Shown here in pieces: positions 3,904 through 25,006 of a stretch of DNA of 32,187 nt. The notes below the pieces were generated by a model. The model was not told where the DNA came from. It did not search any database and worked only from the letters and a program-made list of their open reading frames with translations. The stretch is from the NCBI GenBank assembly GCA_018901125.1, contig JAHIFE010000022.1:1-32187 (forward strand), in the 5' to 3' direction. Position 1 is the first letter of the stretch; each line of letters opens with the position of its first letter. The position numbers and the translations under genes are program-made. The DNA is from Pseudomonadota bacterium. GTDB taxonomy: Bacteria > Desulfobacterota > Desulfobacteria > Desulfobacterales > RPRI01.

Positions 3904-4367
3904 ATTATCTCTGCATAGCCGATGACGTAAAACTTGGGAATAACGTTAAGCTTTCAAAATTTATCAACCTCTATGGATGTACTATTGGTGATGAAACAAA
4001 GATCGGTGCATTTGTTGAAATACAGAAGAACGCATTTGTTGGAAAAAACTGTAAGATATCAAGTCATTCATTTATCTGCGAAGGAGTGACCATTGAAGAT
4101 GAAGTGTTTATAGGCCACAATGTGACCTTTATTAACGATAAAAAGCCCCGTGCCACCACAAACGGCAAATTACAAACTGAGTCTGACTGGAAGGTCGAAC
4201 CGACCCTTGTAAAAAGAGGCGCCTCGATAGGTTCGAGCTGCACGATTTTATCAAATATTACAATCGGTGAATATGCCATAATCGGGGCCGGAAGCATAGT
4301 TACAAAAGACGTGCCCCCAAATGCTATCGTTGCCGGAAATCCAGCTAAAATACTAAAAAATATTTAA
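3900..4367 (+). CDS. wbpD: Left-handed beta-helix N-acetyltransferase, WbpD/WlbB-like
   Basis: This 155-residue protein is built of hexapeptide repeats (IGAFVEI, VGKNCKI, IGSSCTI, IGEYAIIGAGSIV), a trimeric left-handed beta-helix acyltransferase. It ends with the typical VAGNPAKIL. WbpD-type enzymes acetylate the 3-amino group of UDP-GlcNAc3NA using acetyl-CoA. The conserved FINDKKPRA block (about residues 79-87) is typical of nucleotide-sugar N-acetyltransferases. The GTG start is inside the wbpB stop (4-bp overlap) and wbpE follows 13 bp later, so the three genes form one translation unit. Confidence 0.85.
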   Translation: MNYLCIADDVKLGNNVKLSKFINLYGCTIGDETKIGAFVEIQKNAFVGKNCKISSHSFICEGVTIEDEVFIGHNVTFINDKKPRATTNGKLQTESDWKVEPTLVKRGASIGSSCTILSNITIGEYAIIGAGSIVTKDVPPNAIVAGNPAKILKNI

Positions 4368-7038: not shown

Positions 7039-8718
7039 ATGACTGTTAAAAAAACAATCAGGAAACCAAAAACCAATGTTAATGACACAGCACTTTCAGT
7101 TTCTCCGAGCGGTGAAGCCTTCCCTATTCCCAGCCCGGAAGATTACAAAAAAGAATTCACCCGGCTAAAAAAACTTGTTGCCGGTCAAAAAAAAATGAAC
7201 CGGGAAATAGTTGTTGTTATGGGGGTTGGCTTTGTAGGAGCAGTAATGGCCGGTGTTGTTGCTGATTCGATTGACAAAGATAGCGGCAAACCCGGTAAAT
7301 TTGTAATCGGTATGCAGCGCCCCTCTCCTCGCTCATTCTGGAAAATACCATACATGAACCGAGGCATAGCTCCGGTGGAAGCAGAAGATCCTGAAGTCGC
7401 CCCTCTTATAGCACGTTGCGTAAAAGATAAAAAAAACCTTGTTGCAACCTTTACCTATGATGCTCTTAGCCTTGCCGATGTTGTTGTTGTGGATGTTCAG
7501 TGCGACTATTTCAAGGATACCTTTGGAAACTGCCGTGAGGGGCATGCTGAAATAGCAGCCCTGGAGGAGAGCCTTAAAATCATAGGTGATAAAATTAATC
7601 CTGACTGCCTTGTGCTTATTGAGACTACAGTTCCTCCTGGAACAACTGAATATGTAGCATATCCTATAATAAAAAAGGCTTTTGAAAATCGTGGCATCCA
7701 GTCGGAACCGCTGCTTTCTCATTCTTACGAAAGAGTAATGCCCGGACGTGATTACGTGGCCTCAATCCGTGATTTCTGGCGGGTATGCAGCGGAATCAAC
7801 GATACTGCACGTGAGCGTGTCAAAAAGTTTCTTAGCGAAATATTAAATGTAGATAAGTTTCCTCTTACTGTTCTTGATCGTCCTATTGAAAGCGAAACCT
7901 GTAAAATAGTAGAAAACTCTTATCGGGCAACCATACTGGCATTTCTGAATGAATGGAGCCTTTTTGCCGAACGAAACGGCGTAGATATTATAAAGGTTAT
8001 CAAGGCTATTAAGGTTCGCCCGACTCATAGCAATATTATATTTCCCGGTCCTGGCATAGGCGGCTATTGTCTTCCTAAAGATGGCGGGCTTGGAGTCTGG
8101 TCTTATCATACTCTTATGGGTTTTGATGACGATATCTTCAAAATTACACCGCTTGCGATAGATATTAACGACACCCGTTCTCTCCATGCAGCCGAACTTG
8201 TACGTGATGCCTTAAGAAATATGAGTAAAATAGTAGCGGCCTCCAAAGTTGCAATTTTAGGAGCTTCCTACAGGGAGGACGTTGGAGATACCCGCTACAG
8301 CGGATCAGAAATTCTTGTTCGCAAACTTAGCGAGATGGGTGCTGAAATAGTAGTTCACGACCCCTATGTAAAACACTGGTGGGAGCTTGAAAAGCAGGAT
8401 ACCTACCCTGCCCCCGGTCATTCCTGGGCACGTTTTTTCAGAAATCAGGACAAACTAACGGAAACACATGTACAGCATGATCTCAAGAAAGTACTGAAGG
8501 GAGTAGATGCACTGGTTTTGGCAGTCCGTCATCAAGCTTATCTTAACCTTGATCCGGAGGATGTGCTCAAAATGGCAGGCCGGCCGGTGGCTGTTATCGA
8601 TTGCTTCGGCATCCTCGAAGATACCCAGATACAACATTATTTCGAGCTTGGTTGCGAAGTAAAAGGATTGGGCAGAGGACATATGAAAAGAATAAAAGAC
8701 ATGGTAAAAAACAGATAA
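7039..8718 (+). CDS. UDP-glucose/GDP-mannose dehydrogenase family protein (nucleotide-sugar 6-dehydrogenase)
   Basis: This NAD-dependent enzyme would oxidise C6 of a nucleotide sugar to a uronic acid. Visible features are the Rossmann motif GVGFVG (residues 62-67), ETTVPPGTT, the central-domain ENSYRA and the catalytic cysteine in GIGGYCLPKD (C344). The C-terminal domain has LGASYREDVGDTR. At 559 residues it is well over 100 longer than typical WbpA/Ugd proteins. It has a 55-residue basic N-terminal extension and an insertion after the Rossmann loop (about 80-115). It could provide the UDP-GlcNAcA that feeds wbpB, but its divergence leaves the substrate open. GAAAGG lies upstream of the ATG. 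Confidence 0.85.
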   Translation: MTVKKTIRKPKTNVNDTALSVSPSGEAFPIPSPEDYKKEFTRLKKLVAGQKKMNREIVVVMGVGFVGAVMAGVVADSIDKDSGKPGKFVIGMQRPSPRSFWKIPYMNRGIAPVEAEDPEVAPLIARCVKDKKNLVATFTYDALSLADVVVVDVQCDYFKDTFGNCREGHAEIAALEESLKIIGDKINPDCLVLIETTVPPGTTEYVAYPIIKKAFENRGIQSEPLLSHSYERVMPGRDYVASIRDFWRVCSGINDTARERVKKFLSEILNVDKFPLTVLDRPIESETCKIVENSYRATILAFLNEWSLFAERNGVDIIKVIKAIKVRPTHSNIIFPGPGIGGYCLPKDGGLGVWSYHTLMGFDDDIFKITPLAIDINDTRSLHAAELVRDALRNMSKIVAASKVAILGASYREDVGDTRYSGSEILVRKLSEMGAEIVVHDPYVKHWWELEKQDTYPAPGHSWARFFRNQDKLTETHVQHDLKKVLKGVDALVLAVRHQAYLNLDPEDVLKMAGRPVAVIDCFGILEDTQIQHYFELGCEVKGLGRGHMKRIKDMVKNR

Positions 8719-8738: not shown

Positions 8739-10793
8739 ATGAAAATTTACAAAGCTTACTATACAATCAAATTATTCATTCCCCGTTGGCTTCAGATTTA
8801 TATACGACGCCTGGTATTAATGGAAAAGCGCCTCAAGTATAAAGATGTCTGGCCTATTGACAAAAGGGCCGCAAAGCCTCCAAAAGACTGGGCAGGATGG
8901 CCGGACGGAAAAAAATTTGCTCTTGTTTTGACACATGATATTGAAAATTCAAAAGGACACGCCAATTGTAAAAGGTTAGCGGAATTGGAAGAAAGCCTTG
9001 GTTTCAGATCATCCTTTAATTTTGTAGCAAAAGACTATCCGGTTTCTGCCAAATTGCGCCAATATCTTACCGATAGGGGATTTGAAGTAGCCATACACGG
9101 TCTTCATCACGATAAAAATCCGTTTCGGTCAAAAACAATATTTCAAAAGCAGGCTGTTGAAATTAACTGTAGTTTAAAGGAATGGAACGCCGTTGGTTTC
9201 CGGTGTCCAAGCATGTACCATGATCTTGAAATGCTGCATGAGTTAAATATTGAATATGATGCCTCTACCTTTGATACCGATCCCTTTGAACCTCAGCCGG
9301 ACGGTGTTACTACAATATTTCCTTTTAAAGTCTCCGGGAACAACCAACAAAAAGGATATATCGAACTTCCTTATACTCTTCCCCAGGATTTTTTGCTCTA
9401 TGTACTTATGAGGGAAAAGAATATAGATATATGGAAAAACAAACTGGACTGGATTGCCGATAATGGAGGCATGGCTCTCTTCATTACACATCCGAACTAC
9501 ATCAGTTTTGATGAAAATTCGCATTATGAAGAATATCCGGTAAGTTATTATATCGAGTTTTTAGAATACATCAAATCAAAATATGAAGGGCAGTACTGGC
9601 ATGCATTACCACGGGATGTTTCACGTTATTGTGCTTCAAAAACAAGTGAATCTCACCCTACAAACAATGATCCTTGCTCCTTGCACACTGCTGCACCTTG
9701 TACCCAAAACCTTATTCCTTGCACCTCGAACCTTAAACCTTGTTTAATTGATCCGGTTAATGATCCACGATGGGATTTGTTTGTTTTAAATCATCCATTC
9801 GGATATATTTGTCATCTCTCAGGATGGAAGCAGATACTTGAAGAAAGCTTTCCACATATGAAAGGGCATTATTTGGCCATAGTTGATTCCTCTGATAATA
9901 ATATACGGGCTGCTCTTCCGGTTTTTGAGGTAAGAAGTCTTCTTGCAGGAAACAGGCTGGTCAGCATCCCTTTTGCAACTATTTGCGATCCACTTGTGTC
10001 TTCGGATGAAGATATAACAAAACTTCTTGATGCCGCAATAGATCTGTCAAATAATCTCGGAACTTCAAGAATTGAAATCAGAGCAACGGCTTCCACGCAT
10101 CTCAATCAGGATAATAGAGTAGATTCTGTAGTGTACAATAAGAGCCATCAACTATCATTAGAACCTGGCCCCGAAGAGCTGATTAAAACTTTCAGCAAAC
10201 AGGTAAAACGCAAATTAAAAAAAGCTTTAAACAGCGGTTTTGAGCGGCAACTTGCAAAAAATGAACAAGAACTCAAAGAGTTTTATCATCTTTATGTTAA
10301 AACCAGAAAACGTCTCGGGCTTCCACCTCAGCCATATATTTTATTTAAATTGCTGTGGGAAAAATTTTCACCGTCCAATAATCTTAGCCTTCTGATGATC
10401 AGGAACAAAGGACAGTTAGTTGCAGGTTTTATAATATATAAGTTCAAGGATCGCTGCTCTTGGGACTATTTGGCATCGGATGTTGATTTTCAACATTTAC
10501 ATACAAACTATTTTGGCTTATGGGAAGCGATTAAATTATCATGTTTAGAAGGTTATAAGATATTCGATTTTGGCCGAACCGGAATAAGCAATGAGGGATT
10601 AATGGGATTTAAAAAACTTTGGGGGACCACAATTATAGATCTGCCACAATTCTATTATCCCAAAAACTTATGCTCAGATTTATCCCCTGCTGATTCATCA
10701 ATTTTATATAAACTCATAAATAAGGTAAGTAAAATTGCTCCTGATTCTGTATTCCGTCTTATGGGGAAAATTTTATACAGACATCTTGGTTAA
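8739..10793 (+). CDS. Polysaccharide deacetylase-FemAB-like fusion
   Basis: This 684-residue two-domain protein has a NodB-like deacetylase module at residues 1-305: THDIEN (65-70) at the metal-binding Asp position, HGLHHDKNP with H120 and H124, and the GFRCPSMYHD motif. These enzymes remove N-acetyl groups from amino sugars. Residues 337-684 are a FemAB-like module with KRKLKKAL, RKRLGLPPQPY, AGFIIYKF, FDFGRT and GLMGFKKLWG, paralogous to the protein at 5527-6618. The fusion suggests that one domain exposes an amine and the other acylates it. The linker (about 308-335) is Cys/Pro-rich and encoded by a word repeat. No strong ribosome binding site precedes the ATG; ATG 8820 is an alternative start. 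Confidence 0.8.
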   Translation: MKIYKAYYTIKLFIPRWLQIYIRRLVLMEKRLKYKDVWPIDKRAAKPPKDWAGWPDGKKFALVLTHDIENSKGHANCKRLAELEESLGFRSSFNFVAKDYPVSAKLRQYLTDRGFEVAIHGLHHDKNPFRSKTIFQKQAVEINCSLKEWNAVGFRCPSMYHDLEMLHELNIEYDASTFDTDPFEPQPDGVTTIFPFKVSGNNQQKGYIELPYTLPQDFLLYVLMREKNIDIWKNKLDWIADNGGMALFITHPNYISFDENSHYEEYPVSYYIEFLEYIKSKYEGQYWHALPRDVSRYCASKTSESHPTNNDPCSLHTAAPCTQNLIPCTSNLKPCLIDPVNDPRWDLFVLNHPFGYICHLSGWKQILEESFPHMKGHYLAIVDSSDNNIRAALPVFEVRSLLAGNRLVSIPFATICDPLVSSDEDITKLLDAAIDLSNNLGTSRIEIRATASTHLNQDNRVDSVVYNKSHQLSLEPGPEELIKTFSKQVKRKLKKALNSGFERQLAKNEQELKEFYHLYVKTRKRLGLPPQPYILFKLLWEKFSPSNNLSLLMIRNKGQLVAGFIIYKFKDRCSWDYLASDVDFQHLHTNYFGLWEAIKLSCLEGYKIFDFGRTGISNEGLMGFKKLWGTTIIDLPQFYYPKNLCSDLSPADSSILYKLINKVSKIAPDSVFRLMGKILYRHLG
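9671..9742 (+). repeat. CCTTGCACC-type word repeat translated in-frame
   Basis: About 72 bp are made of variants of CCTTGCACC (CCTTGCTCC, CCTTGTACC, CCTTGCACC, CCTTAAACCTTG). The repeat lies exactly between the deacetylase and FemAB domains of the fusion gene and keeps the frame open, encoding a linker with four PC pairs. Such words are normally intergenic, so this looks like the old gap between two genes that became coding. Confidence 0.65.
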
Positions 10794-13095: not shown

Positions 13096-13256
13096 CCGCA
13101 GATAAACGCAGAAAGACATTTGATCAACGTTCCAAATAAAACTTACCTGCGATAGCAGCATGTCAGCATTTTAAGAACTTTTCCTCTTAAAAAATTTTTA
13201 AAAACAACTCTGGGCACTCTGTGAGAGACAAGTAAAAATATATGGGGATTTGTAAA

Positions 13257-13436
13257 ATGAATACACTAAAGCAAGAAGCATTAACAGCGATTGAACAACT
13301 TCCGGATACTGCCGACATAGATGCAATCATGTATAAACTCTATGTGATCGATAAAGTAAGAAAAGGAAGAGAAGCCATTGAAAAAGGCGATATGATATCT
13401 GTGGAAGATCTGGCCCGGGAAAGCGATGCATGGTAA
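13257..13436 (+). CDS. Small antitoxin of a ParE/RelE-type module
   Basis: This 59-residue protein starts MNTLKQEALTAIEQLPDTADIDAIMYKLYVIDKVRKG and ends EDLARESDAW, a shape typical of short antitoxins encoded just before ParE/RelE toxins. I chose ATG 13257 over ATG 13242 because GGGGAT lies 8 nt upstream. Its last codons overlap the toxin start (ATG 13430, TAA 13434-13436). The toxin is broken by one stop codon, so this may be an orphan antitoxin now. Confidence 0.7.
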   Translation: MNTLKQEALTAIEQLPDTADIDAIMYKLYVIDKVRKGREAIEKGDMISVEDLARESDAW

Positions 13437-13744
13437 TCTGGGCCACACCGGCAAAGTCTGACTTGAAAGCCATTTACGATTTTATAGCATCTGACTCAAA
13501 ATATTATGCAAAGAAAGTGGTCCGGGATATTATTGCAAAAACGAATATACTCGAAGAACATCCGGGCATTGGCAGGCAAGTTCCAGAGATAAATGATTAA
13601 AACCTACGGGACATCTTTATATATTCATACAGAATCCTTTACGAAATCAATTATGGTAAGATTTATATTATAGGAATAATTCACGGCAGCCGTGATTTTG
13701 CATCCACAGATTTTCACAGAATCAAGAAGCATGACAACAGCTAA
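13430..13744 (+). pseudogene. ParE/RelE-family toxin interrupted by one nonsense codon
   Basis: Frame 13430-13744 reads MVIWATPAKSDLKAIYDFIA..., ILEEHPGIGRQVPEIND, then TAA at 13598-13600 (codon 57). It continues in the same frame as NLRDIFIYSYRILYEI and IYIIGIIHGSRDF to TAA at 13742. Both halves match the ParE/RelE toxin pattern, including the C-terminal R.Y.I.YEI block, and no shift of frame is needed. A single substitution probably inactivated the toxin. A sequencing error is the alternative. Confidence 0.85.
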
Positions 13745-14080: not shown

Positions 14081-14241
14081 ATGACAATTAATAAAAAAGA
14101 GTTGATAACATACTGGGTAAATAGTTCTGATAATGATTTCAAGGCAATGATACATTTGAATGTACAAGAGAATTTACTTCTAAATGGATTGCTACAATAA
14201 AGGAATTTAGAAAATGGATAAAAGAAAAGCTCCTGAAATAG
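14081..14241 (+). pseudogene. HEPN toxin gene with central deletion
   Basis: The frame from ATG 14081 gives MTINKKELITYWVNSSDNDF, a typical HEPN N-terminus, then runs into stop TAA at 14198. In another frame, 14161-14241 encodes CTREFTSKWIATIKEFRKW and ends in LLK-stop, a typical HEPN C-terminus that overlaps the start of the nucleotidyltransferase gene. Intact HEPN proteins have roughly 110-140 residues, so the middle (most of the helical bundle and active site) has been removed with a change of frame. Confidence 0.75.
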
Positions 14242-14522
14242 CGATTAACTATATCGATTTTCTGAGAAAAAGAGACACCAGTATAAAAAAAGCTTATCTT
14301 TTCGGATCTTATGCTAAAGGAACGGCCGACGCCGACAGTGATATAGATTTGGCTATCGTATTTGAAAATCTTTCCGACACTTTTGATATGCAAGTTCTTT
14401 TAATGAAACTTAGAAGAAAATTTGATAATAAAATCGAACCGCATGCTTTCAGGGATTCCGATTTTAATACTTCTAACCCTGTGGCTAATGAGATATTTAA
14501 ATATGGAATTGAACTTTTTTAA
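14214..14522 (+). CDS. MNT-type nucleotidyltransferase (antitoxin of HEPN/MNT pair)
   Basis: This 102-residue minimal nucleotidyltransferase has the signature GSYAKGTADADSDIDLAI (residues 31-48), with the GS and the DxD metal ligands of the polymerase-beta superfamily. MntA-like proteins of this type modify their HEPN RNase partner. The start overlaps the 3' end of the HEPN remnant by 28 bp, the normal arrangement, but the partner is deleted, so the gene appears to be a solitary survivor. Confidence 0.85.
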   Translation: MDKRKAPEIAINYIDFLRKRDTSIKKAYLFGSYAKGTADADSDIDLAIVFENLSDTFDMQVLLMKLRRKFDNKIEPHAFRDSDFNTSNPVANEIFKYGIELF

Positions 14523-14628: not shown

Positions 14629-15801
14629 GTGAGTAATTTTAAGGAAGTTATATCAGCAAGTATTCAAAAACTCGAAAAATGGATCGAAGATCACGATTAT
14701 AAAGGCTACGATCCTGCTGACGGCCTGACATCTTTTTTAAGGCCATTAACCTTTGGCAATTTATTTCTGGATCGTCTCTTACAGCAGCTTGTCTGGCGCA
14801 GCCCCATTAATATTCGTCCGATAGTTGGGGTCAAACCATTAGATTCGTGTATCGGTCGTGGTTATATGGCTTGGGGATATCTTGCAATGCTAAAAACAAC
14901 CGGCGATAACAGTTATAGAAAAAAAGCGGAATCATGCCTTGATTGGCTTATTAATAATAGATCCCCAGGTTTTGAACACTATTGCTGGGGTAAGATGTTT
15001 GATTTTGCCAGCCGGGGAGGAAGGCAGGGAAAATATGAACCAATTACTGTGTGGACCAGTCTTATAGGTCAGGCATTTATTGACGCATATGAAATAACTG
15101 GCGACAAAAAATATCTGGAAGTAGCTGAGAGTATATGCGATTGGATAGTTGAAAGACCAAGAAATATCACAGAATCAGGCTGTTGTATAAACTATACTCC
15201 TTCCGGAGAAGGCGATTGCACTATTCATAATCAAAGCATGCTGGCTGCTGCAATGTTGGCGAAGACTGCCAAATATAATTCCAATCAGGAATATCTAAGA
15301 CTCGCTAAAGAAGCTGTTACATATACGTGCACACGACAGTTACCTGATGGATCATGGCTTTATGGTGAAGAACCTAAATACCACTGGATTGATAATTTTC
15401 ACACAGGATATAATCTGGACGCTCTTAAGTGCTATATCGAAAACACAAATGACAAAACCTTTGAAGATAGTTTAAAGAAAGGCTTTGATTTTTTTAAAAT
15501 TAATTTCTTTGAACCAACAGGAAGACCTAAATACTATCACAACAGGACATATCCCATAGACAGTCAGTGTTGTTCCCAGGCAATTGAAACTTTAGCCAAT
15601 TTTTCCGACTACGATGAAACATCTCTGGAACTGGGAGTAAGAGTTGCAAAATGGACTATTGAAAATATGCAGGACCAAACAGGATATTTCTATTTCATGC
15701 GATATCCGTATATGACATTAAAAGTACCAATGATACATTGGGCGCAGGCTACTACTTATAAGGCAATGTCAATGTTGCTTAAGGCTCTTAACTCTGAATA
15801 A
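14629..15801 (+). CDS. VpsJ-like alpha/alpha-toroid polysaccharide biosynthesis protein
   Basis: This 390-residue protein without signal peptide or membrane segment is made of repeated helical hairpins (RGYMAWGYLAMLKTTGD, SLIGQAFIDAYEITGDKKYL, QSMLAAAMLAKTAKY, HTGYNLDALKCYIENT, HWAQATTYKAMSMLLKAL), an alpha/alpha toroid. Similar proteins occur in polysaccharide clusters, including VpsJ of Vibrio. Their fold suggests a carbohydrate-active lyase, hydrolase or epimerase, but no activity is established. It starts with GTG, with AGGA 7 nt upstream. It is followed closely by the amidotransferase gene. Confidence 0.7.
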   Translation: MSNFKEVISASIQKLEKWIEDHDYKGYDPADGLTSFLRPLTFGNLFLDRLLQQLVWRSPINIRPIVGVKPLDSCIGRGYMAWGYLAMLKTTGDNSYRKKAESCLDWLINNRSPGFEHYCWGKMFDFASRGGRQGKYEPITVWTSLIGQAFIDAYEITGDKKYLEVAESICDWIVERPRNITESGCCINYTPSGEGDCTIHNQSMLAAAMLAKTAKYNSNQEYLRLAKEAVTYTCTRQLPDGSWLYGEEPKYHWIDNFHTGYNLDALKCYIENTNDKTFEDSLKKGFDFFKINFFEPTGRPKYYHNRTYPIDSQCCSQAIETLANFSDYDETSLELGVRVAKWTIENMQDQTGYFYFMRYPYMTLKVPMIHWAQATTYKAMSMLLKALNSE

Positions 15802-15837: not shown

Positions 15838-16968
15838 ATGGCTGATATCATAAGGTGCACTCGGTGTATACTCCCAGTTTCATTGCCCAGTGTTAGATTA
15901 GATGATAATGGAGTCTGCAATCACTGCACTACTTATGAAAGGCGCTTCATAGCGGCTCAAACTGTTAGTACCGATCGGATTTCAATATTTGAGGAACTTT
16001 TGAACAATGCAAAAAAACGTCATCGTACGTATGACTGCTTGATACCGCTGAGTGGTGGAAAAGATAGTACCTATTCACTTTATGTTTGTGCAAAGCTATA
16101 TGGTATGCGTTGTCTTGCAGTTACGTTTGATAATGGGTACCTCTCAGAGCATGCTCTCACAAATATCAATCATGCAGTGAATATTTCCGGTGCAGATCAC
16201 ATTCATTACAAGGTTAATCGGCCCACCATGTTGAAACTTTACAAAACATTTCTGGAACATTGTGGGTCTTTTTGTCCAGCCTGTATGCGAGGTATTGGTT
16301 CGGCAATTGAATCTGCCAAGAAATATGATATTCCACTTATCATATCGGGAACTGGAGCCCGGGTAGCCTACTTGGCCATGATACCAGAATTATACCAAGG
16401 AGGAGATCCCAGATTTTTTAAAAATGTACTCAAAGGTAGTGAATTGGTGACAAGTGTAGACCAGCTATCAGGTAGCGATTCTCTTTATAATTTTGAAAAA
16501 CTTATGGGCATTGCCCTAAGGACTTTAGGACTTCCGATAAAAACGAAACACCAACAAATAGGAATCTATGACTATTTCGAACCGGATCTAATTAATGTTT
16601 ATGAAATAATTCAAAAAGAAATGGGATGGACAAAACCGGATGGCAACGCCGAACATATGGATTGCCTTGTTCAAAGTGTTGCTAATTATATACAAACTCT
16701 CAAATTTCCAGAGCTTACACCCAAAACTATTTATAACAGTGGACAGGTTCGATTTGGAAGAATGAGCAGAGAAGCAGCATTGGAAGTAGAAGATGACAAT
16801 TTGCGTAATACTGATGCCCCAGCGATGCTTGATACTTTTTTAAGAGAAATCAATATGGATAAGAAGGTTTTTTATAACTCCACTAATGATTGGAGAAAAT
16901 TAGACTCATATCGAAATAAGAAATTAGATTCTATAAGGCGCATATACCGTAAAATTGCTAGAAATTAG
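15838..16968 (+). CDS. N-acetyl sugar amidotransferase, WbpG/PseA-like
   Basis: This 376-residue PP-loop ATPase has SGGKDST (residues 72-78) and two CxxC pairs (C7/C10 and C27/C30) forming a zinc ribbon, with CPACMRG further on. WbpG-type enzymes convert an N-acetyl group of a nucleotide sugar into an acetamidino group, using ammonia delivered by HisH/HisF-like partners. No such partner genes are visible in this window. AAGGAG stands 11 nt before the ATG. It is likely co-transcribed with the VpsJ-like gene. Confidence 0.85.
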   Translation: MADIIRCTRCILPVSLPSVRLDDNGVCNHCTTYERRFIAAQTVSTDRISIFEELLNNAKKRHRTYDCLIPLSGGKDSTYSLYVCAKLYGMRCLAVTFDNGYLSEHALTNINHAVNISGADHIHYKVNRPTMLKLYKTFLEHCGSFCPACMRGIGSAIESAKKYDIPLIISGTGARVAYLAMIPELYQGGDPRFFKNVLKGSELVTSVDQLSGSDSLYNFEKLMGIALRTLGLPIKTKHQQIGIYDYFEPDLINVYEIIQKEMGWTKPDGNAEHMDCLVQSVANYIQTLKFPELTPKTIYNSGQVRFGRMSREAALEVEDDNLRNTDAPAMLDTFLREINMDKKVFYNSTNDWRKLDSYRNKKLDSIRRIYRKIARN

Positions 16969-17053: not shown

Positions 17054-17950
17054 ATGATAGTTGACAATAAAGAACTTGTAATCAGAGGTAGATTCATTAA
17101 AAAGGTACAATTAAAATCCGAATGGGATGTGGATATTAAAGAGCCAGAAGCATTCATCAAGCAAATTAAAAACAGCAAAATCAAAGCAGACATATTTACT
17201 TTTATGCAAAGATTGCCGGAATCCAGGCCAAAATACAATTATCAAATGATTTGGGACAGCCGAGCGGCTATACCAATTACAACCTACGATCATTGGCACA
17301 AAAACCAACTCCATCAGAATCCAAGAAATAAAATGCGGATAGCTCAAAAAAAAGGAGTGACTGTTAAATTATGCGAATTTAATGATGACCTCATAGAAGG
17401 GATAACAAATATTTATAATGAAACCCCTATAAGACAAAATAAGCGTTTCCCGCAATATGGTATAGATTTCAACGCTACACGAAAGGCCCATATAACTTAT
17501 ATAGACAGGGCGCACTTTATAGGTGCATACTACAACGATGAAATGATCGGTTTTTTAAAATTAGTTTCAACCGAAAACTATATGAGAACGATGGGAATTC
17601 TCGCAAAAGAATCACATCGAGATAAAGCCCCAATGAACCTGCTCGTAGCAAAAGCTGTGGAGATTTGCGCAAAAAAAGGAATTCCATATTTTGTTTACGG
17701 AAAGTATAATTATGGCAAAGGTGGAAGTGAGACATTCAGAGAATTCAAACATTATCTGGGGTTTGAAAGCATAGTTCTACCACGATATTATATCCCTCTT
17801 AATGCTTGGGGAAGTTTAATAATAAATCTAAATTTACACCTTAAACTAATCGACATACTCCCAAAGAAATTGCTGGGGGTTTTACTGCAGATGCGAAACA
17901 ACTGGCATATGAAGAAATATTCAAAATTATCGCGCAACAATAATTGCTAA
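17054..17950 (+). CDS. GNAT/FemAB-like acyltransferase
   Basis: This 298-residue protein contains the block NKMRIAQKKGVTVKLCEF, then IYNETPIRQNKRFPQYG, FIGAYYNDEMIGFLKLV and MNLLVAKAVEICAKKGIPYFVYGKYNYGKG. This is a single acyltransferase domain of the FemAB/GNAT superfamily. The C-terminal part carries a weak amphipathic segment. The acyl donor, acyl-CoA or aminoacyl-tRNA, cannot be told from sequence. It stands between the amidotransferase and the first AsnB-like gene, two genes ahead of the tRNA. The ATG has only a weak ribosome binding site. Confidence 0.72.
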   Translation: MIVDNKELVIRGRFIKKVQLKSEWDVDIKEPEAFIKQIKNSKIKADIFTFMQRLPESRPKYNYQMIWDSRAAIPITTYDHWHKNQLHQNPRNKMRIAQKKGVTVKLCEFNDDLIEGITNIYNETPIRQNKRFPQYGIDFNATRKAHITYIDRAHFIGAYYNDEMIGFLKLVSTENYMRTMGILAKESHRDKAPMNLLVAKAVEICAKKGIPYFVYGKYNYGKGGSETFREFKHYLGFESIVLPRYYIPLNAWGSLIINLNLHLKLIDILPKKLLGVLLQMRNNWHMKKYSKLSRNNNC

Positions 17951-18058: not shown

Positions 18059-19900
18059 ATGCCAGGAATCGTTGGAATAATCAGTAAAACACCGCAAGAA
18101 ATAAAATATACGCAGAATGTACAATTGATGGTTCATGCTATGATGCATGAACCATTTTATTCTTCTAGTATTTATACAAATGACAAATTGGGTGTTTATG
18201 CGGGTTGGATTTGTCACAAAGATTCATTTTCAGATTGCATGCCTATATGGAATGAGAAAAAGAATCTGGTGATGTTATTCTTTGGAGAAAACTTTACTGA
18301 TAAAGAAACATTTGACCGCCTTAAGTCAAAAAATCACAAATTCGATAATTCTAATGCAAGCTACATAATTCATCTTTATGAAGAAAAGGGCATTGATTTT
18401 TTGAAAGACTTAAACGGCTGTTTCAGTGGCCTCTTGATAGATATTCAGGCGGAAAAAGTTTTTTTATTTAACGACCGCTATGGGATGCAGCGAATTTATT
18501 ACTATGAAAGTAATGATGCCTTTTACTTTTCATCCGAAGCAAAAGCCCTGCTAAGAATTTGTCCGGAACTCCGAAAAATAGACATGAAAGGTTTGGGCGA
18601 ATATTTATGTTATAACTGCGTCTTGGAAAATCGTTCATTGTTTCAAAACATCTATCTTCTGCCTTGTGCTTCGGTATGGAAATTTCAAATTGATGGACTC
18701 ATCAATAAAGCGGTCTACTTCACGCCTGATGAATGGGAAAATCAACCTTGGCTTGAAAAAGAATTCTTTTATGAAAAATTGAAAGAAACTTTTATAAAAA
18801 TATTGCCACGGTACTTTCGCACAAATCAAAAAATTGGGATTTCTCTAACAAGTGGTCTGGATATACGCATCATAATGGCAAATATAGACATGCAGGCAGG
18901 CAAGTATCCAAGTTATACATTTGGCGGAACATATCGTGATAGCTTTGATGTTCAAACAGCGCGTAAAATTAGCAATGTATGCAATCAAACACACCAAGTT
19001 TTTTATCTTGATAAAAAATTCTTAAATGATTTTTCAATCTATGCCGATAAGACAGTATATATGACAGATGGTTGTTTAGGCGTAGTTGAAACTCCAAAAA
19101 TATATACTGCTGCTTTAGCAAGAGAAATTGCGCCAATCAGCATGACAGGTAATCATGGAGGTAATATTTTAAGAGGGGAAGGAGGAGGAACATTAAAGGC
19201 AACTCCGCCAAGTGATAATCTCTTCAACGCTGAATTTAAAAAATATATTCATCAAGCATTAATTTATGATGATTATCTTCGCAATAATAAATACGACACT
19301 TTATCTTTTAACCTATTCACGAAAATACCATGGTACAAGAATGCGGAATTCATTGGTGAACAAACACAGTTGACACGGCGCAGCCCCTATTTGGACAGCG
19401 ATTTTGTATCTTTAATGTATAGAGCGCCTATGGTCTTTCGAAATAACAAAGAATTGTCACTGAGATTAATGCGGGATGGCAATCCATCATTAAGGAATAT
19501 TCCAACAGACCGGGGATACGACAGCAATCAAAATTTTCCATTTTCAATGCTAACGCACTTACATGGGGAATGCTTATTCAAAGCAGAACATGCATATAGC
19601 GAGAAGATGTCCCCGTGGCTCGCTAAATTAGACCATATATTTATGTTGCTGCATTTCGAAAGATTATTTCTTGGTTATCATGAGTATGCTCATTTCCGAA
19701 CATGGTATCAGAATGAATTGGCTGATTATGTGCAGGAAATACTATTAGATGAAAAGACATTAAATAGACCTTTTTTAAACAGAGTAAAACTAGAAAAAAT
19801 AGTACTTGACCATACCAAGGGATATTGCAATAATACAGCCGAAATAAATAAAATACTCTCTGTGGAGTTGATCCATAGGTTGTTAATCGAAAATTATTAA
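18059..19900 (+). CDS. AsnB-like amide-forming protein 1, no glutaminase cysteine
   Basis: This 613-residue protein has the overall plan of glutamine-dependent asparagine synthetase. The N-terminus is MPGIVGIIS where active enzymes have MCGIxGI, so the catalytic Cys2 is Pro and glutaminase activity is not expected. The N-terminal fold persists (FLFNDRYGMQRIYY). The ATP-pyrophosphatase loop near residues 264-270 is TSGLDIR, degenerate against SGGLDSR. The C-terminus carries RSPYLDSDFV and IPTDRGYDS. It may use free ammonia or another amine, bind without catalysis, or be inactive. CCGGAGA precedes the ATG. A full-length paralog lies at 23180. Confidence 0.8.
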   Translation: MPGIVGIISKTPQEIKYTQNVQLMVHAMMHEPFYSSSIYTNDKLGVYAGWICHKDSFSDCMPIWNEKKNLVMLFFGENFTDKETFDRLKSKNHKFDNSNASYIIHLYEEKGIDFLKDLNGCFSGLLIDIQAEKVFLFNDRYGMQRIYYYESNDAFYFSSEAKALLRICPELRKIDMKGLGEYLCYNCVLENRSLFQNIYLLPCASVWKFQIDGLINKAVYFTPDEWENQPWLEKEFFYEKLKETFIKILPRYFRTNQKIGISLTSGLDIRIIMANIDMQAGKYPSYTFGGTYRDSFDVQTARKISNVCNQTHQVFYLDKKFLNDFSIYADKTVYMTDGCLGVVETPKIYTAALAREIAPISMTGNHGGNILRGEGGGTLKATPPSDNLFNAEFKKYIHQALIYDDYLRNNKYDTLSFNLFTKIPWYKNAEFIGEQTQLTRRSPYLDSDFVSLMYRAPMVFRNNKELSLRLMRDGNPSLRNIPTDRGYDSNQNFPFSMLTHLHGECLFKAEHAYSEKMSPWLAKLDHIFMLLHFERLFLGYHEYAHFRTWYQNELADYVQEILLDEKTLNRPFLNRVKLEKIVLDHTKGYCNNTAEINKILSVELIHRLLIENY

Positions 19901-19924: not shown

Positions 19925-20002
19925 GGGGCCGTAGTTCAATTTAGATAGAACACCAGCCTGTCACGCTGGAGGTTGTAAGTGCAAATCTTGCCGGCCCCGC
20001 CA
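19925..20002 (+). tRNA. tRNA-Asp (GTC) with altered elbow
   Basis: Acceptor arms GGGGCCG and CGGCCCC pair fully, then G73 and an encoded CCA. The D stem is GTTC/GAAC. The anticodon stem CCAGC/GCTGG holds loop CTGTCAC with anticodon GTC at 19984 minus 24 to 22 (19960-19962). The T stem is GTAAG/CTTGC. Aspartate identity elements G73, G34, U35, C36, C38 and G10 are all present. Unusual features: the D loop AATTTAGATA has A instead of G18, and the T loop TGCAAAT has G instead of U55. G19-C56 is retained and the 15-48 pair is A-U. It sits 24 bp after an AsnB-like gene and on the same strand, so it is probably co-transcribed. It may be a dedicated non-ribosomal tRNA or a decaying copy. Confidence 0.85.
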
Positions 20003-20223
20003 ATTTAGTTATAAAGATACTACAACAAAAAGCATAAATGATAAACGGACGATAATTAAAGAACTGCTTAAAGTGATCAAGATAGTATTACGAGAACATA
20101 AATGATACTTTTTAAAATAGTAATTAAAATATGCGCGACTATAAGAAACTACGGAAGTTTTCAAGGGAACTGTTATAAATTAATCACTTCAAATTACAAA
20201 ACGAATAATAGAGTAAGCCCCTG
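20003..20223. other. AT-rich spacer between tRNA and Wzy
   Basis: I see no gene, no second tRNA and no clear terminator in these 221 bases. It could hold the processing site of the tRNA and a promoter for the polymerase gene, but nothing is distinct enough to call. Confidence 0.4.
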
Positions 20224-21600
20224 ATGTATCGCTTACATGTTACTTTTCTATGCATCCTCTTGATAATTTGCCTCTTCTGGATTGATCGAAAAAATAAAAA
20301 TATAGATGTTAGTCCCGCTATATGGATACCCTTTGTCTGGCTATTTTTTGCCAGTGCGCGCCCATTTTCTTTTTGGCTACACTACTTCTTTGGCATCGGA
20401 TATTATGCCGGATCCATCGAAAATGCTAAAATAGAAGGTAATCCCTACGAGCGGATCTATCTAATTATTCTAATTCTTTCAGGAATCATTGTCTTGATTA
20501 GGCGTAAGCTTGACTGGGGAAAGCTGTTCAATCAAAACACCTTAATATGGATGTATTTCATATTTGGCGCTCTGAGTTTCCTTTGGTCAGATTACCCCTT
20601 TGTCTCCTTTAAACGATGGGTTAAGTCCTTAGGTACTGTCATTATAGTCTTGATTATTATAACAGAGTCGAAGCCTTATGAGGCGATTGGGATCATCTTG
20701 CGCCGGATTTCCTTCATCTGTTTGCCCCTGTCAATCCTATTTATCTGGTATTACCCGAAACTTGGCATATCATATCATAGCTTTTCAGGTGGCAAGATGT
20801 ATACGGGAATTGCCGAACATAAAAACAGTTTGGGGAGTATCTGTCTGGTCTCTTGCGTATATTTCACATGGAAATTGCTCTTCAGCAATCAGAATAAAGA
20901 TGGAACAGGTCCACCACTGCATTCTTTTATTTATATAGTCATTCTACCAATGATTGTGTGGCTTTTATATATGGCAAACAGTGCAACATCACTTGCCTGC
21001 TCTATCGCGGCAATCTGCCTTCTATTGGTTAGCCGGCTGTCCAAATTTGTACAAAATCCTCGTAAAATATTGATCTTGGGTATTTTGGGAATTATTGCGT
21101 TTGGCTTAATGCAATGGGCCTTTGATGTTAAAAATATAATAATTACTATGCTAGGACGACGAACGGATTTAACCACACGAGTCCCAATGTGGAAGGATAT
21201 GCTGTCTATGGTTAAAAATCCCCTTTTAGGTTTTGGCTATGAAAGCTTCTGGTTGGGTGAGCGACTAGAACAGATAAATGCTCGTTGGGGAATTGACAGC
21301 CAGGCACATAACGGCTACCTTCAAATGTATCTTGACTTAGGTTATACAGGACTTTTTTTTCTAATTGGCTGGATCATTAGTGGATTGAAAAAAGTCGCTC
21401 GTCATCTTGCAGTTGATTATCCCGCAGCTATATTCAGATGTTGCTTCATTGTGATTGTTGCTTTGTACAATTACACAGAAGCAACCTTTTTAGGAGGTAG
21501 TGCTTTACTATTTCTATTTTTATTTGCGGCGATTGATTATAATTATGAGATGAATAAAAATATTCAAACCATACAGACACCATGGCTATATTCAAAATAA
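20224..21600 (+). CDS. O-antigen polymerase/ligase family membrane protein (Wzy-like)
   Basis: This 458-residue integral membrane protein has about ten to twelve hydrophobic segments. The family signature SQAHNGYLQMYLDLGYTGL (H362, N363) lies in the large periplasmic loop and the following helix. It would polymerise flipped repeat units in the periplasm, or ligate the chain to a lipid. Its position beside the Wzx-like gene favours polymerase. The ATG at 20224 has no strong ribosome binding site. Confidence 0.85.
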   Translation: MYRLHVTFLCILLIICLFWIDRKNKNIDVSPAIWIPFVWLFFASARPFSFWLHYFFGIGYYAGSIENAKIEGNPYERIYLIILILSGIIVLIRRKLDWGKLFNQNTLIWMYFIFGALSFLWSDYPFVSFKRWVKSLGTVIIVLIIITESKPYEAIGIILRRISFICLPLSILFIWYYPKLGISYHSFSGGKMYTGIAEHKNSLGSICLVSCVYFTWKLLFSNQNKDGTGPPLHSFIYIVILPMIVWLLYMANSATSLACSIAAICLLLVSRLSKFVQNPRKILILGILGIIAFGLMQWAFDVKNIIITMLGRRTDLTTRVPMWKDMLSMVKNPLLGFGYESFWLGERLEQINARWGIDSQAHNGYLQMYLDLGYTGLFFLIGWIISGLKKVARHLAVDYPAAIFRCCFIVIVALYNYTEATFLGGSALLFLFLFAAIDYNYEMNKNIQTIQTPWLYSK

Positions 21601-21670: not shown

Positions 21671-23158
21671 TTGGTTATCGGTAATCTTAAAAAAACGGCT
21701 GTACGTAGCGCGGGAATAAACGTCATATCAAACTCTATTGGCTTTATTTTCCAGACAGCTGGTGTGATCGTACTTGCCCGACTATTGACGCCAAAAGATT
21801 TCGGTTTGGTGGCCATGGTTACAGCTTTCAGTATGTGGATTATGAATTTCGGGATCAATGGATTCACCGAATATATTATTCAGAAAAAAGATATCAATAC
21901 GCTTGAAATCAATTCTATATTCTGGACTCATCTTTTTTTAGCCTCATTGCTTTCTGTATGTTTTATACTATTTGGTTTTTTTCTCGTTTATTTTTATAAA
22001 GAACCTGCCTTAAGCGGTATATCAGCCGTTATGGCATCCAGCTTCATTCTCTATGCTCTTTTTACATGCCACTTTGCCGTTCTCAAACGGGAAATGAAAT
22101 TTACCTATATTGCTTCTGCTCAATTGATCGCAGTTATTTTAAGTATCGGGTTATCAATTTCGGCAGCTACCATTGGCCTGGGCTATTGGGCAGTTGTTAT
22201 CCGACAATTGACATTGCCCATTATTACAGTGATTGCTGCCTGGATTATACGCCCCTGGCGTCCTCAACGGCCACAAAACCTTTTAAATGCCTTACCGGCA
22301 TTAAAATATGCGATTAAAGTATATTCCAATTTCTCTCTTAGTTACTTGTCAAGAAATATCGATAATGTTCTCCTGGGAAAATTCCATGGCTCCACAGTAC
22401 TCGGCAATTACGATCGCGCTTACTATTTATCTCAACAGCCTATTGCACAACTCCTTCAGCCATTAACCAGTGTTGCACTTGCAACACTCAGTCGTATAAG
22501 ACAGGATAAAATAAAATTTGCAGCATATTATATCAAGGTTGTTTCAACGATCTCATTTACAGGGATGGCTGTGACAATCTCCTTCATGCTGACGGCGCAA
22601 GACCTGGTGCTGCTCCTTCTTGGCCCCGCGTGGACAGAAACAGGAAAAATTTTAATGGCGTTAATCCCGGCCTTGGCGGCAACTCTGACATCCGGAACAA
22701 ACTCATGGCTATATCTATCCCTTGGCCAGCCTGGACGCTGGTTTCGCTGGAATATTATCGCAACAAGTTTTACTATACTCGCTTTCATTATTGCTGCGCC
22801 ATTCGGCGCTGTTGCAATGGGTATAGCTTACAGCACCAAAGCGTACATCCTTTTGCTGCCTGGTCTATGGTATGCTGGTCGCCCGATTCAGCTTAGTCCC
22901 AAAATATTGCTTAACTCAATATGGCCATATCATTCATCTGCCCTCATTATTGCCGCATTCTGGTTATATATTTCTACCCATTGGATGCCTTTGAGCATTT
23001 TTCTTTCCGAGTTGCATATTATAATAAGGGTTGCACTAGTCGCATGCACGGCAACATTTCTTTATATCAGCCTGGTTGCTTTATTTGAGCGAAGCTTTAA
23101 ATCAGTTTATGACTTTATTGCACTTGTTAAATTATTCTTTAAACGTGGTGACGCGTAA
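21671..23158 (+). CDS. Wzx-like flippase (MOP superfamily)
   Basis: This protein of about 495 residues has twelve to fourteen predicted membrane segments and typical features: VLARLLTPKDFGLVAMVTAF near the N-terminus, LSYLSRNIDNVLLGKF and YDRAYYLSQQP in the centre. It belongs to the WzxC-like polysaccharide exporters, which flip lipid-linked repeat units. The start is probably TTG 21671, since no ATG or GTG in frame precedes the conserved N-terminus; there is no clear ribosome binding site. It is followed after 21 bp by the second AsnB-like gene. Confidence 0.85.
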   Translation: MVIGNLKKTAVRSAGINVISNSIGFIFQTAGVIVLARLLTPKDFGLVAMVTAFSMWIMNFGINGFTEYIIQKKDINTLEINSIFWTHLFLASLLSVCFILFGFFLVYFYKEPALSGISAVMASSFILYALFTCHFAVLKREMKFTYIASAQLIAVILSIGLSISAATIGLGYWAVVIRQLTLPIITVIAAWIIRPWRPQRPQNLLNALPALKYAIKVYSNFSLSYLSRNIDNVLLGKFHGSTVLGNYDRAYYLSQQPIAQLLQPLTSVALATLSRIRQDKIKFAAYYIKVVSTISFTGMAVTISFMLTAQDLVLLLLGPAWTETGKILMALIPALAATLTSGTNSWLYLSLGQPGRWFRWNIIATSFTILAFIIAAPFGAVAMGIAYSTKAYILLLPGLWYAGRPIQLSPKILLNSIWPYHSSALIIAAFWLYISTHWMPLSIFLSELHIIIRVALVACTATFLYISLVALFERSFKSVYDFIALVKLFFKRGDA

Positions 23159-23179: not shown

Positions 23180-25006
23180 ATGCCCGGTATTACAGGTATA
23201 ATCAGCAAAAAAGCTATTCAGATCAATGAACCGACTTTAGATACGATGATCAGCGCCATGCATTATGAAGATTTTTATACAAGCGGCAAATATCTGAATG
23301 AACAGATGGGGGTTTATGTTGGATGGGCCGTACACAAGGACTCCTTTGCTGATTGCCTGCCGATCTATAACAAGGAAAAAGATGTCATATTAATATGTTA
23401 TGGAGAAAACCATGCTAATAGCGATGTTCTTCAAATACTAAAAAGTAAAGACCGTGATGTAACCACTTTGAATGCTTCTTATTTGATTCATTTATACGAA
23501 GATGATACGCAGGAATTTCTTAAAAAACTCAACGGATGGTTCTGCGGCCTTCTTATAGACCTTCGAAAGAAGAAATCTTTTTTATTTAATGATAGATACG
23601 GCATGCAGCGTATATATTTCCATGAGGACAAAGATACCGTCTATTTTGCATCTGAAGCAAAATGTATTTTAAAAGCAAAGCCTGAATTGAGGAAGATAAC
23701 AGCACAAGGTCTTGCAGATCTTTTATATTGTCAGTGCGTTTTAGATAATCAATCGCTATTTGAAAATATAGATTTATTACCCGGTGGAAGCTGCTGGGAA
23801 ATTCAGCAGAAAGAAATAGTTAATAGACACCGCTATTTTGACCCTATAGAATTTGAAAAATTGCCACCGTTAGACGGCGATGTTTTTTACAGCAGACTAC
23901 AAGAAACTCTACGAAGAATCTTACCTAAATATTTTATAGCTAATGGCAGGATTGCCTTTTCGTTAACTGGCGGCCTGGATACTCGCATGATATTAGCTAA
24001 CATCCCAAAGCCGTTGACAAATGTTGAGTGCTATTCCCATGGTGGCGCATATCGGGATTGTTATGACGTAAAGATAGCTCGTCAAATTGCTAATCTGTGC
24101 GGTCTTACACACCACACCCTTAAAATAGATGACAAGTTTATTGCTGATTTCCCGGCCCTTGCAAAAAAGACAATATTCATTACAGATGGATATATGGACC
24201 TCAACGGCACACCAAGTCTCTATCTGCATGGTAAAGTAAGAGAAATAGGCAATATTCGATTTACCGGAAATTTCGGCGATCAGGTACTGGTCGGCCGCAT
24301 AAACCTGTTGCCTTCACAAAGAAAGTCTCAAATAGTTAACGGCGATCTCCACACATATATGGATCAATCTGCGGAACGTTTCAGGCAAATATCAGTGGGC
24401 CATCCTTTAACTTTTTTCTTGTTCAAACAAGCGCCCTGGTTTGATTATGCCCGATATTCCCTTGAACAATCCCAGTTAGTTCAGCGATCGCCCTTTATGG
24501 ATCTTGAATTAATAAAGCTTTTATACCAGGCTCCAAAGGGCATGCTTGCCTCGCAGGACATTAGGATGCGACTTATTCGAGATGGAAATTCTGAGTTAGC
24601 CAAAATCCCAACCGACAGAGGTTATCTTGGCAGCAATATTATTTTTGCTTCAAAAGTACTTCATTCATACAGAGACTTCCTGTTCAAACTTGAATACTAT
24701 TTCAGTTACGGTATGCCGCATTGGCTTGCAAAGTTAAATAATGCAATTAGTTTTACGCATCTCGAATATTTGTTTCTTGAAGTCAACAAATATTATAACC
24801 TCAGAAGATGGTTTCGTTATGAATTGGCTGACTATGTAAAATCCATCCTTTTGGATGCCAGAACCCTGAACCGGCCATTTATCAACAGAAGCTTCGTCGA
24901 GAACATGGTTACTGCCCACACCAGCGGCCGCGGAAATTATACAAACCAGATCAACCGTCTTCTTAGTATCGAACTATCTTTTAGATGCTTAATCGAGGAT
25001 ATTTAA
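23180..25006 (+). CDS. AsnB-like amide-forming protein 2, no glutaminase cysteine
   Basis: This 608-residue full-length paralog of the protein at 18059 has the same MPGITGIIS start (Pro in place of Cys2), shared blocks HKDSFADCLPI, FLFNDRYGMQRIY, RSPFMDLEL, IPTDRGYLGSN and a very similar C-terminus. Unlike copy 1, its ATP-pyrophosphatase loop is well kept (LTGGLDTR, residues 262-269), so adenylation of a carboxylate is plausible. The nitrogen or amine donor would have to be free or supplied by another protein. Copy 4 of the hairpin element follows 13 bp later. A role in amidating or coupling an amine to a uronic acid is inference. Confidence 0.82.
   Translation: MPGITGIISKKAIQINEPTLDTMISAMHYEDFYTSGKYLNEQMGVYVGWAVHKDSFADCLPIYNKEKDVILICYGENHANSDVLQILKSKDRDVTTLNASYLIHLYEDDTQEFLKKLNGWFCGLLIDLRKKKSFLFNDRYGMQRIYFHEDKDTVYFASEAKCILKAKPELRKITAQGLADLLYCQCVLDNQSLFENIDLLPGGSCWEIQQKEIVNRHRYFDPIEFEKLPPLDGDVFYSRLQETLRRILPKYFIANGRIAFSLTGGLDTRMILANIPKPLTNVECYSHGGAYRDCYDVKIARQIANLCGLTHHTLKIDDKFIADFPALAKKTIFITDGYMDLNGTPSLYLHGKVREIGNIRFTGNFGDQVLVGRINLLPSQRKSQIVNGDLHTYMDQSAERFRQISVGHPLTFFLFKQAPWFDYARYSLEQSQLVQRSPFMDLELIKLLYQAPKGMLASQDIRMRLIRDGNSELAKIPTDRGYLGSNIIFASKVLHSYRDFLFKLEYYFSYGMPHWLAKLNNAISFTHLEYLFLEVNKYYNLRRWFRYELADYVKSILLDARTLNRPFINRSFVENMVTAHTSGRGNYTNQINRLLSIELSFRCLIEDI

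Follow-up and report, generated by a model that had tools for sequence, protein, structure and literature searches.

A candidate reserved tRNA-Asp in a polysaccharide operon of a Desulfobacterales bacterium

The tRNA gene and the operon around it

The window, by which we mean the whole 32,187-nucleotide stretch of DNA analysed (contig JAHIFE010000022.1 of assembly GCA_018901125.1), carries a polysaccharide locus. Its gene set comprises a tyrosine autokinase, a sugar-phosphate transferase, glycosyltransferases, Wzy, Wzx, MBOAT and AlgX-like proteins, two AsnB-like proteins and a WbuX-like protein, and the predicted activities suggest a glycan of diamino-uronic (amino-uronic) sugars. A tRNA-Asp gene lies among these genes. 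The features relevant to the analysis are:

2899-3903, + strand: Gfo/Idh/MocA oxidoreductase, UDP-HexNAc 3-dehydrogenase-like, with a score below that model's cut-off
3900-4367, + strand: hexapeptide acyltransferase, sugar N-acetyltransferase-like
4381-5487, + strand: DegT/DnrJ sugar aminotransferase
5527-6618, + strand: FemAB-like protein (PF02388, 46.3 bits against a gathering score of 24; PDB match FemX)
7039-8718, + strand: UDP-sugar dehydrogenase-like protein (uronic acid)
8739-10793, + strand: fusion of a weakly polysaccharide-deacetylase-like N-terminal half and a FemAB-like C-terminal half (PF02388, 35.5 bits, also above the gathering score)
15838-16968, + strand: WbuX-like N-acetyl sugar amidotransferase (183.3 bits, below the cut-off of 203.2)
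17054-17950, + strand: unannotated protein of 298 residues with a predicted FemX (double GNAT) fold and homologues in six of six other loci
18059-19900, + strand: AsnB-like amidotransferase, the marker for homologous loci
19925-20002, + strand: tRNA-Asp(GUC) with encoded CCA, beginning 24 nt after the asnB stop (called by ARAGORN; Rfam tRNA model, 63.8 bits against a gathering score of 29)
20224-21600, + strand: Wzy-like polymerase/ligase, the next larger gene after the tRNA
21671-23158, + strand: Wzx-like flippase
23180-25006, + strand: second AsnB-like protein, 45% identical to that of 18059-19900

The tRNA-Asp is the sole Rfam match in the window at the gathering score. Upstream of it, a promoter-like site (19806-19834) and a terminator-like site (19859-19879) turn up in simple scans, with site counts close to those in shuffled sequence; between the tRNA and the Wzy-like gene, a simple scan lists no terminator-like site on the + strand. 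The tRNA is followed by a 40-codon open reading frame with no Pfam match (20102-20224); the stop of this frame and the start of the Wzy-like gene overlap. Direct repeats of 14 and 11 nt near the tRNA were considered as traces of an integration site and taken as chance, and the scans of window open reading frames, which for 10 of them included PHROGs, recognised no phage or integrase gene. Toxin-antitoxin debris lies further upstream, at 13242-13600 and 14081-14522. It includes a short ParE-like reading frame (PF05016) with an upstream frame that by eye is antitoxin-like, and an MntA-like nucleotidyltransferase preceded by a possible HEPN fragment, again recognised by eye.

Anatomy and constraint of the tRNA-Asp

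An earlier note on this DNA had read the gene as a tRNA-Asp with all stems paired and aspartate identity bases intact. This reading was borne out: ARAGORN and Rfam both call the tRNA, 21 of its 21 stem pairs are standard, and G10, the anticodon G34, U35 and C36, C38 (read from the letters) and G73 are all present. U33 and the entire anticodon arm, decoding loop included, are kept. The letters that the note gave for the remaining positions, namely A18, G19, T54, G55, C56, A58 and A15/U48, are correct as well. The D-loop and T-arm features are:

19943, + strand: A18, coupled with G55 at 19981
19981, + strand: G55 in the T loop TGCAAAT, with no U for pseudouridine 55
19975-19991, + strand: T arm, with G49-C65, U50-G64 and A51-U63 against G49-U65, C50-G64 and G51-C63 in ordinary tRNA-Asp

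The source genome (4.45 Mb, 241 contigs, 46 tRNA matches) holds a second, ordinary tRNA-Asp gene, adjoining a tRNA-Val (G000:C171:4359-4436) and carrying GG18-19 and TTC; the circumstance named by the note as fatal to its proposal, that the window gene be the only tRNA-Asp of the genome, does not apply. The two genes are identical at 58 of 78 positions, with 20 substitutions between them. The closest ordinary tRNA-Asp genes, from other families of the order, are identical to the window tRNA at 62 of 78 positions, and L161, an ordinary tRNA-Asp of the order, is separated from it by 16 substitutions. When the 16 changes from L161 were placed at random, all 21 pairs were kept in 78 of 200,000 trials; for the 20 changes from the genome's own gene, the figure was 48 of 200,000. 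Pairs 5-68, 29-41 and 51-63 are changed on both sides, and 15-48 has gone from G-C to A-U. Because 21 pairs are kept through 16-20 substitutions, beyond chance, free decay is unlikely, and on this comparison the structure is one that has been selected or inherited from a functional source.

Ordinary tRNA-Asp aside, the window tRNA had no further genomic matches at E ≤0.001. We looked for the same T-loop change in 10 genomes of the family and 395 of the phylum. It matched three of the former (the window and two occurrences in non-tRNA sequence) and gave four matches in the latter (the window, one of those two non-tRNA occurrences and two more); ARAGORN calls no tRNA in the matches L048, L049 and L051, and L052 was judged by eye. 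U33 is present in 45 of the 46 tRNAs of the source genome; the remaining one is, judged by eye, a tRNA-Thr(GGU) in the wrong register. The same genome also contains a tRNA with a long variable arm, a Leu-like body by eye and the proline anticodon UGG (L028:1501-1587, on G000:C162), in addition to another tRNA-Pro(UGG).

The earlier note had described the G18-psi55 pair as lost, where replaced is the better word: A18 and G55 co-occur in many viral tRNAs. A scan of genome contigs from 84,980 species for Asp tRNAs with a base other than U at position 55 gave 97 stretches and 102 parsed matches, the window included. C55 with GG kept accounts for 89 of the 102. A18 with G55 occurs in the window tRNA, L077, L149 and L100 (the last called by Rfam only), and G55 with GG18-19 kept in L098, L119, L139, L145, L147 and L153; from the G55 side, the coupling is not strict in bacterial genomes. 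A search of IMG/VR for class I tRNAs with A18, whatever their base 55, gave at least 122 matches in at least 120 stretches. Among the 122 listed, 83 have G55, 39 have T55 and none has A or C, and in many of the listed T55 cases a GG lies one step away. Within the listed IMG/VR loci, ARAGORN and a parser yielded 712 distinct tRNAs, in which AG-type D loops go with G55 in 137 of 163 cases and with T55 in 26, and GG-type loops with T55 in 504, C55 in 19 and G55 in 2 (n=525). A second scan, for G55 with any base 18, gave at least 120 stretches; the 96 analysed produced 82 distinct matches, and among these listed matches 79 have A18 (75 AG and 4 AGG). Among the loci listed, many viral tRNAs of many isotypes thus carry A18-G55 as a joint substitute for G18-U55 (IMG/VR loci L193-L374; also L149 and L077). 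Since such tRNAs presumably serve translation, the elbow alone argues neither for nor against translation. An A18-type loop is absent from the 45 other tRNAs of the source genome.

The changes in pairs 49-65 and 51-63 are more informative than the elbow. The earlier note saw that T-stem bases were changed and overlooked that these EF-Tu pairs were among them. According to the accessible text of PMC4499158, the tRNA's own contribution to EF-Tu affinity is determined mainly by pairs 49-65, 50-64 and 51-63, and tRNA-Asp ranks third in binding strength. Ordinary tRNA-Asp of the order has G-U at 49-65 and G-C at 51-63 in 29 of 29 loci. Nine of the source genome's remaining 45 tRNAs have A51-U63, and none of the nine is an Asp, Glu or Gly species.

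Homologous operons and proteins with a predicted FemX fold

We sought the AsnB-like protein of 18059-19900 in 10 genomes of the family, 389 of the order and 395 of the phylum, and in 17, 46 and 26 genomes around those designated G149, G388 and G073, in overlapping sets, taking as strong a match at E ≤1e-40 in the order search and ≤1e-60 in later searches. Strong matches outside the source genome came from six genomes (G513, G149, G073, G340, G388 and G791), which belong to different genera, none in the window's family. Homologues of the genes at 14629, 17054 and 18059 are present in all six loci (in G340 in part), and a homologue of the gene at 20224 in G149, G073, G513 and G791. On plasmids, no homologue of 18059-19900 was found at 1e-40 and none of 8739-10793 at 1e-25; for the gene at 14629-15801, 29 plasmid records matched at 1e-25, the listed rows showing about 30% identity.

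Two of the six loci carry a tRNA on the operon strand. In G149, whose AsnB homologue is 64% identical to the window protein, a tRNA-Glu(CUC) occupies the same slot as the window tRNA, 43 nt past the asnB stop; in G388, a tRNA-Gly(UCC) sits downstream of the 17054 homologue and upstream of asnB, at distances of 57 and 117 nt respectively. ARAGORN and Rfam (E ≤1) gave no tRNA in the stretches of G513 (39 kb), G073 (25.8 kb, the whole contig) and G791 (39 kb), which keep the asnB and 17054 homologues despite having none, and no tRNA was found in the 5.1-kb contig of G340, which ends inside asnB. Because three homologous operons are without it, the operon tRNA is optional. The homologous loci, to which the earlier note had looked for a check, gave a divided answer: a tRNA in two of six, each structurally irregular, none in three, and one locus cut off. 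If 46 tRNAs are placed uniformly over 4.45 Mb, the probability that at least two of five other loci have a tRNA within 130 nt is about 1e-4 (1.2e-4), a rough figure, for polysaccharide loci may attract insertions. In G513 the asnB-wzy gap is shorter than in the window, and no tRNA remnant was seen in it.

The window tRNA is identical to the operon tRNA-Glu at 46 and to the operon tRNA-Gly at 45 of 78 positions. All three keep the acceptor stem, anticodon and CCA, with G73 in Asp and Glu and U73 in Gly, and each departs from the ordinary genes compared in its T stem at the EF-Tu site. All 40 of the ordinary Asp, Glu and Gly tRNA genes examined have G-C at 51-63 (six from the source genome, 29 order loci, many of them alike, four from G388 and one from G149). 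This pair is A-U in the window tRNA-Asp and in the operon tRNA-Glu of G149; in the tRNA-Gly of G388 it is A-U with one bulged U in the Rfam alignment, or G-U with two mismatches as called by ARAGORN.

The operon tRNA-Glu has A33 for U33 (loop C-A-C-U-C-A-A) and a C27-A43 mismatch. G149 has no ordinary tRNA-Glu(CUC) that we could find, only a tRNA-Glu(UUC) elsewhere, which has U33. A tRNA that is charged and does not decode would be expected to look like this, with the U-turn base gone and the identity bases retained, although decay could have the same outcome. In G388, the 2.02 of approximately 2.1 Mb covered yielded no ordinary tRNA-Gly(UCC), and for this reason the operon tRNA-Gly of that genome might be the proteinogenic gene. 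In the same 2.02 Mb, tRNA-Tyr, Thr(UGU), Thr(GGU), Ile and Ala(UGC) are likewise uncalled. Many G388 tRNA genes lack an encoded CCA; the operon tRNA-Gly has one.

The earlier note had FemAB-like genes surrounding the tRNA. In fact the two recognisable ones (5527-6618 and 8739-10793) sit 9-14 kb upstream, and none was recognised downstream among the open reading frames scanned; a closer gene, the unannotated 17054-17950 with its predicted FemX fold, had been overlooked. PDB sequence matches of the two recognisable proteins are FemX and FemX-type synthases, and against TIGR03019 they score 110.1 and 148.5 bits, below the curated cut-off of 260.35. In a sequence alignment, the FK pair of 5527-6618 falls on the FK of S. 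aureus FemX; the catalytic lysine of W. viridescens FemX is Lys305. The N-terminal half of the fusion matches TIGR03006 at E 0.002 (0.012 for the G149 homologue and 0.039 for that of G073), and PF01522 at E 0.008 for the G149 homologue with no match for the window protein, all below cut-off. A model of the fusion (mean pLDDT 61.9) finds FemX, Sbb17/Sba18, FemA, MprF and A-PGS/L-PGS-type chains in its best 21 Foldseek rows; of these, FemA, MprF and PGS are known users of aminoacyl-tRNA.

The protein of 17054-17950 has no family match at 1e-3. PF02388 is detected in three of seven homologues (best E 6.7e-4), the window member being unlisted up to E 1. Its predicted model, made from an alignment of the seven homologues, in which an FK pair is invariant, has a mean pLDDT of 73, and Foldseek rows 1-6 for this model are Sbb17/Sba18 and FemX. 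Against FemX (6snr) it gives Z 15.5 over 247 residues at 3.9 A, and against Sba18 and Sbb17 Z 15.4 and 15.2, compared with 12.3 for 2hqy, an uncharacterised protein, and 12.2 for the highest-scoring plain GNAT; identity to the streptothricin-type synthases is 12-17% in alignments. The model thus predicts a fold resembling aminoacyl-tRNA-dependent transferases, Sbb17/Sba18 and FemX being users of aminoacyl-tRNA according to PDB entry titles or the accessible text of PMC12945691.

FemAB genes number two in the window, three in G149 and one found in G073, which has no tRNA; tblastn at 1e-5 found none in the stretches read of G513 and G791, and the contigs of G388 and G340 are too short for this census. 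The third gene of G149 (L379:10778-11893; PF02388, 104.7 bits) lies directly after the deacetylase-FemAB fusion.

A proposed role outside translation and its rivals

We propose that the operon tRNA is probably reserved for a FemX-type transferase that aminoacylates an amino sugar of the polysaccharide. The operon would build a glycan with amino-uronic sugars. Because the aspartate identity bases are kept, the cell's AspRS would be expected to charge the tRNA, and because the strong T-stem pairs at 49-65 and 51-63 are replaced, the product would be a poor EF-Tu ligand. A FemX-type transferase, most likely the neighbour 17054-17950, else 5527-6618 or 8739-10793, would move the aspartyl group from the tRNA to a sugar amino group, which the deacetylase-like half of 8739-10793 might have freed, and an AsnB-like protein may then amidate the free carboxyl. 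With a Glu or Gly tRNA at this gene in two operons, a cassette would set the decorating amino acid. We give close to an even chance to this wider reading, in which an exchangeable tRNA cassette (Asp, Glu or Gly), withdrawn from translation and placed beside a FemX-fold transferase and an AsnB-like gene, dictates the amino acid of the glycan; it rests on two further loci, and if true, surface-polymer chemistry would change by the swapping of a tRNA gene.

A tRNA reserved for non-ribosomal aspartyl transfer had been suggested in the earlier note from the elbow, an argument that fails to carry it. The suggestion draws its support instead from the tRNAs of other isotypes at the same gene, the EF-Tu and decoding changes, and the neighbour with its predicted FemX fold. 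Counting against it, the C27-A43 mismatch of the tRNA-Glu and the disturbed T stem of the tRNA-Gly may also be read as decay; three homologous operons are tRNA-less, and the window tRNA keeps U33 and its decoding loop.

That the gene is an ordinary extra translational tRNA, horizontally acquired, possibly by phage, and only incidentally placed in the operon, we consider unlikely. The kept U33 and anticodon arm fit such an origin, as does an A18-type loop seen in none of the 45 other tRNAs of the genome, and phage acquisition would explain an elbow of phage type, A18-G55 being coupled in viral tRNAs (G55 in 137 of 163 AG-type loops among loci listed). However, the nearest relatives are tRNA-Asp genes of the host order (62/78) and not the collected viral tRNA-Asp, the best of which, L235, matches at 60/78 and the best with A18-G55, L314, at 57/78; a comparison with GenBank phages produced 60 records, of which the best is 79.4% identical across query bases 1-63, and among the window frames scanned none was recognised as a phage or integrase gene. 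Nor would an extra copy serve a decoding need, since by wobble rules ordinary tRNA-Asp(GUC) reads both Asp codons, and the Glu and Gly tRNAs at the same gene and the lost U33 would go unexplained.

Somewhat less likely again is a pseudo-tRNA origin, with copies landed by chance in insertion-prone polysaccharide loci and now decaying. The absence of a tRNA from three of the five other loci with enough sequence, the C27-A43 mismatch and A33 of the Glu copy, the disturbed T stem of the Gly copy, and the toxin-antitoxin debris at 13.2-14.5 kb, which suggests that the region takes insertions, are all consistent with it. Against this stand the 21 of 21 stem pairs with both-side changes at 5-68, 29-41 and 51-63, the fact that no operon tRNA has lost its acceptor stem, anticodon, discriminator base or CCA, and the occurrence of three isotypes next to one gene, all in the same orientation, an unlikely product of uniform insertion. 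We regard as very improbable a processing or regulatory element, whereby RNase P and tRNA-maturation cuts would part the asnB and wzy mRNA or the tRNA would act as a charging-state sensor. The position between two same-strand operon genes, 24 nt after the asnB stop, would suit it, and so would the lack of a listed + strand terminator-like site before the Wzy-like gene, but it leaves unexplained the changed EF-Tu pairs, the position before asnB in G388 and the change of isotype.

A reserved tRNA invites comparison with the non-proteinogenic tRNA-Gly of S. aureus, used by FemX, FemA and FemB for pentaglycine bridges, to which the earlier note had likened the D loop and T arm. The accessible text of PMC4052509 describes loss of GG18-19 and the replacement of G51-C63 by A51-U63, and so upholds the GG18-19 and T-stem parts of the parallel; the GUGC that the note mentioned was not found there. 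As in S. aureus (accessible parts of PMC4052509 and PMC9976931), an extra isoacceptor stands beside ordinary ones, G18 is replaced, pairs 49-65 and 51-63 are replaced with an identical A51-U63, and the users belong to the FemABX family, here by prediction. In S. aureus, however, both bases of GG18-19 are replaced (by UU or CU), pair 49-65 is A-U and the amino acid is glycine only, whereas the window tRNA has A18 with G19 kept, G-C at 49-65 and aspartate, with Glu and Gly in two related loci. It also lies inside a polysaccharide operon, has the A18-G55 elbow and would serve a target other than peptidoglycan. Because G19 is kept, we do not assign the window tRNA to the S. aureus type.

Among streptothricin-type FemX-fold synthases (Sbb17, Sba18 and Orf11), Sbb17 and Sba18 are among the closest solved folds to the 17054-17950 model; unlike the system proposed here, these synthases concern small-molecule antibiotics, and the term 'tRNA gene' is absent from the accessible text of PMC12945691. 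Orf11, which by the same text makes glycylthricin from the amino sugar intermediate streptothrisamine, is by analogy the nearest biochemical precedent for the proposed transfer. XrtA/PEP-CTERM exopolysaccharide loci also bring together relatives of FemAB (TIGR03019), a deacetylase (TIGR03006) and an amidotransferase (TIGR03108) in one locus. In the window, by contrast, all three models score below their curated cut-offs, and we know of no tRNA that is part of the XrtA/PEP-CTERM system. Phage-encoded tRNAs share the A18-G55 elbow and differ in that no phage genes were recognised in the frames scanned and the nearest sequences are host-order tRNA-Asp.

To our knowledge, few cases of a bacterial tRNA species kept for a non-ribosomal job have been described. 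Dedicated tRNAs for FemABX enzymes are already known for peptidoglycan, and within the accessible CC-licensed PMC literature no report of a dedicated tRNA inside a polysaccharide operon was found. If the proposed reservation is true, a biosynthetic operon outside peptidoglycan synthesis would include a reserved tRNA, with an isotype that varies by lineage. Such a tRNA would also give the FemAB-like proteins of environmental exopolysaccharide loci a concrete substrate, provide a sequence signature for finding further such loci, and make the diversion of aminoacyl-tRNA from the ribosome testable by genetics.

The replacement of G18-U55 as a unit by A18-G55 bears on the requirements of the tRNA elbow. 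Other 18-55 pairs may already be on record in older studies of selected suppressor tRNAs; within the accessible literature, no mention of a coupled A18-G55 replacement in viral tRNAs was found. On one uncultured-bacterium contig, 38 ARAGORN tRNAs are packed into about 4.5 kb (L149:3163-7643), and the A18-G55 elbow occurs in 25 of 30 distinct parsed tRNAs there. A tRNA-Asp with C55 (TCC loop) and GG18-19 kept, seen in L081, L082, L086, L094, L099, L106, L114, L144, L158 and many Patescibacteria loci, occurs in several Clostridium species, which we take to be cold-living, in Patescibacteria and in others.
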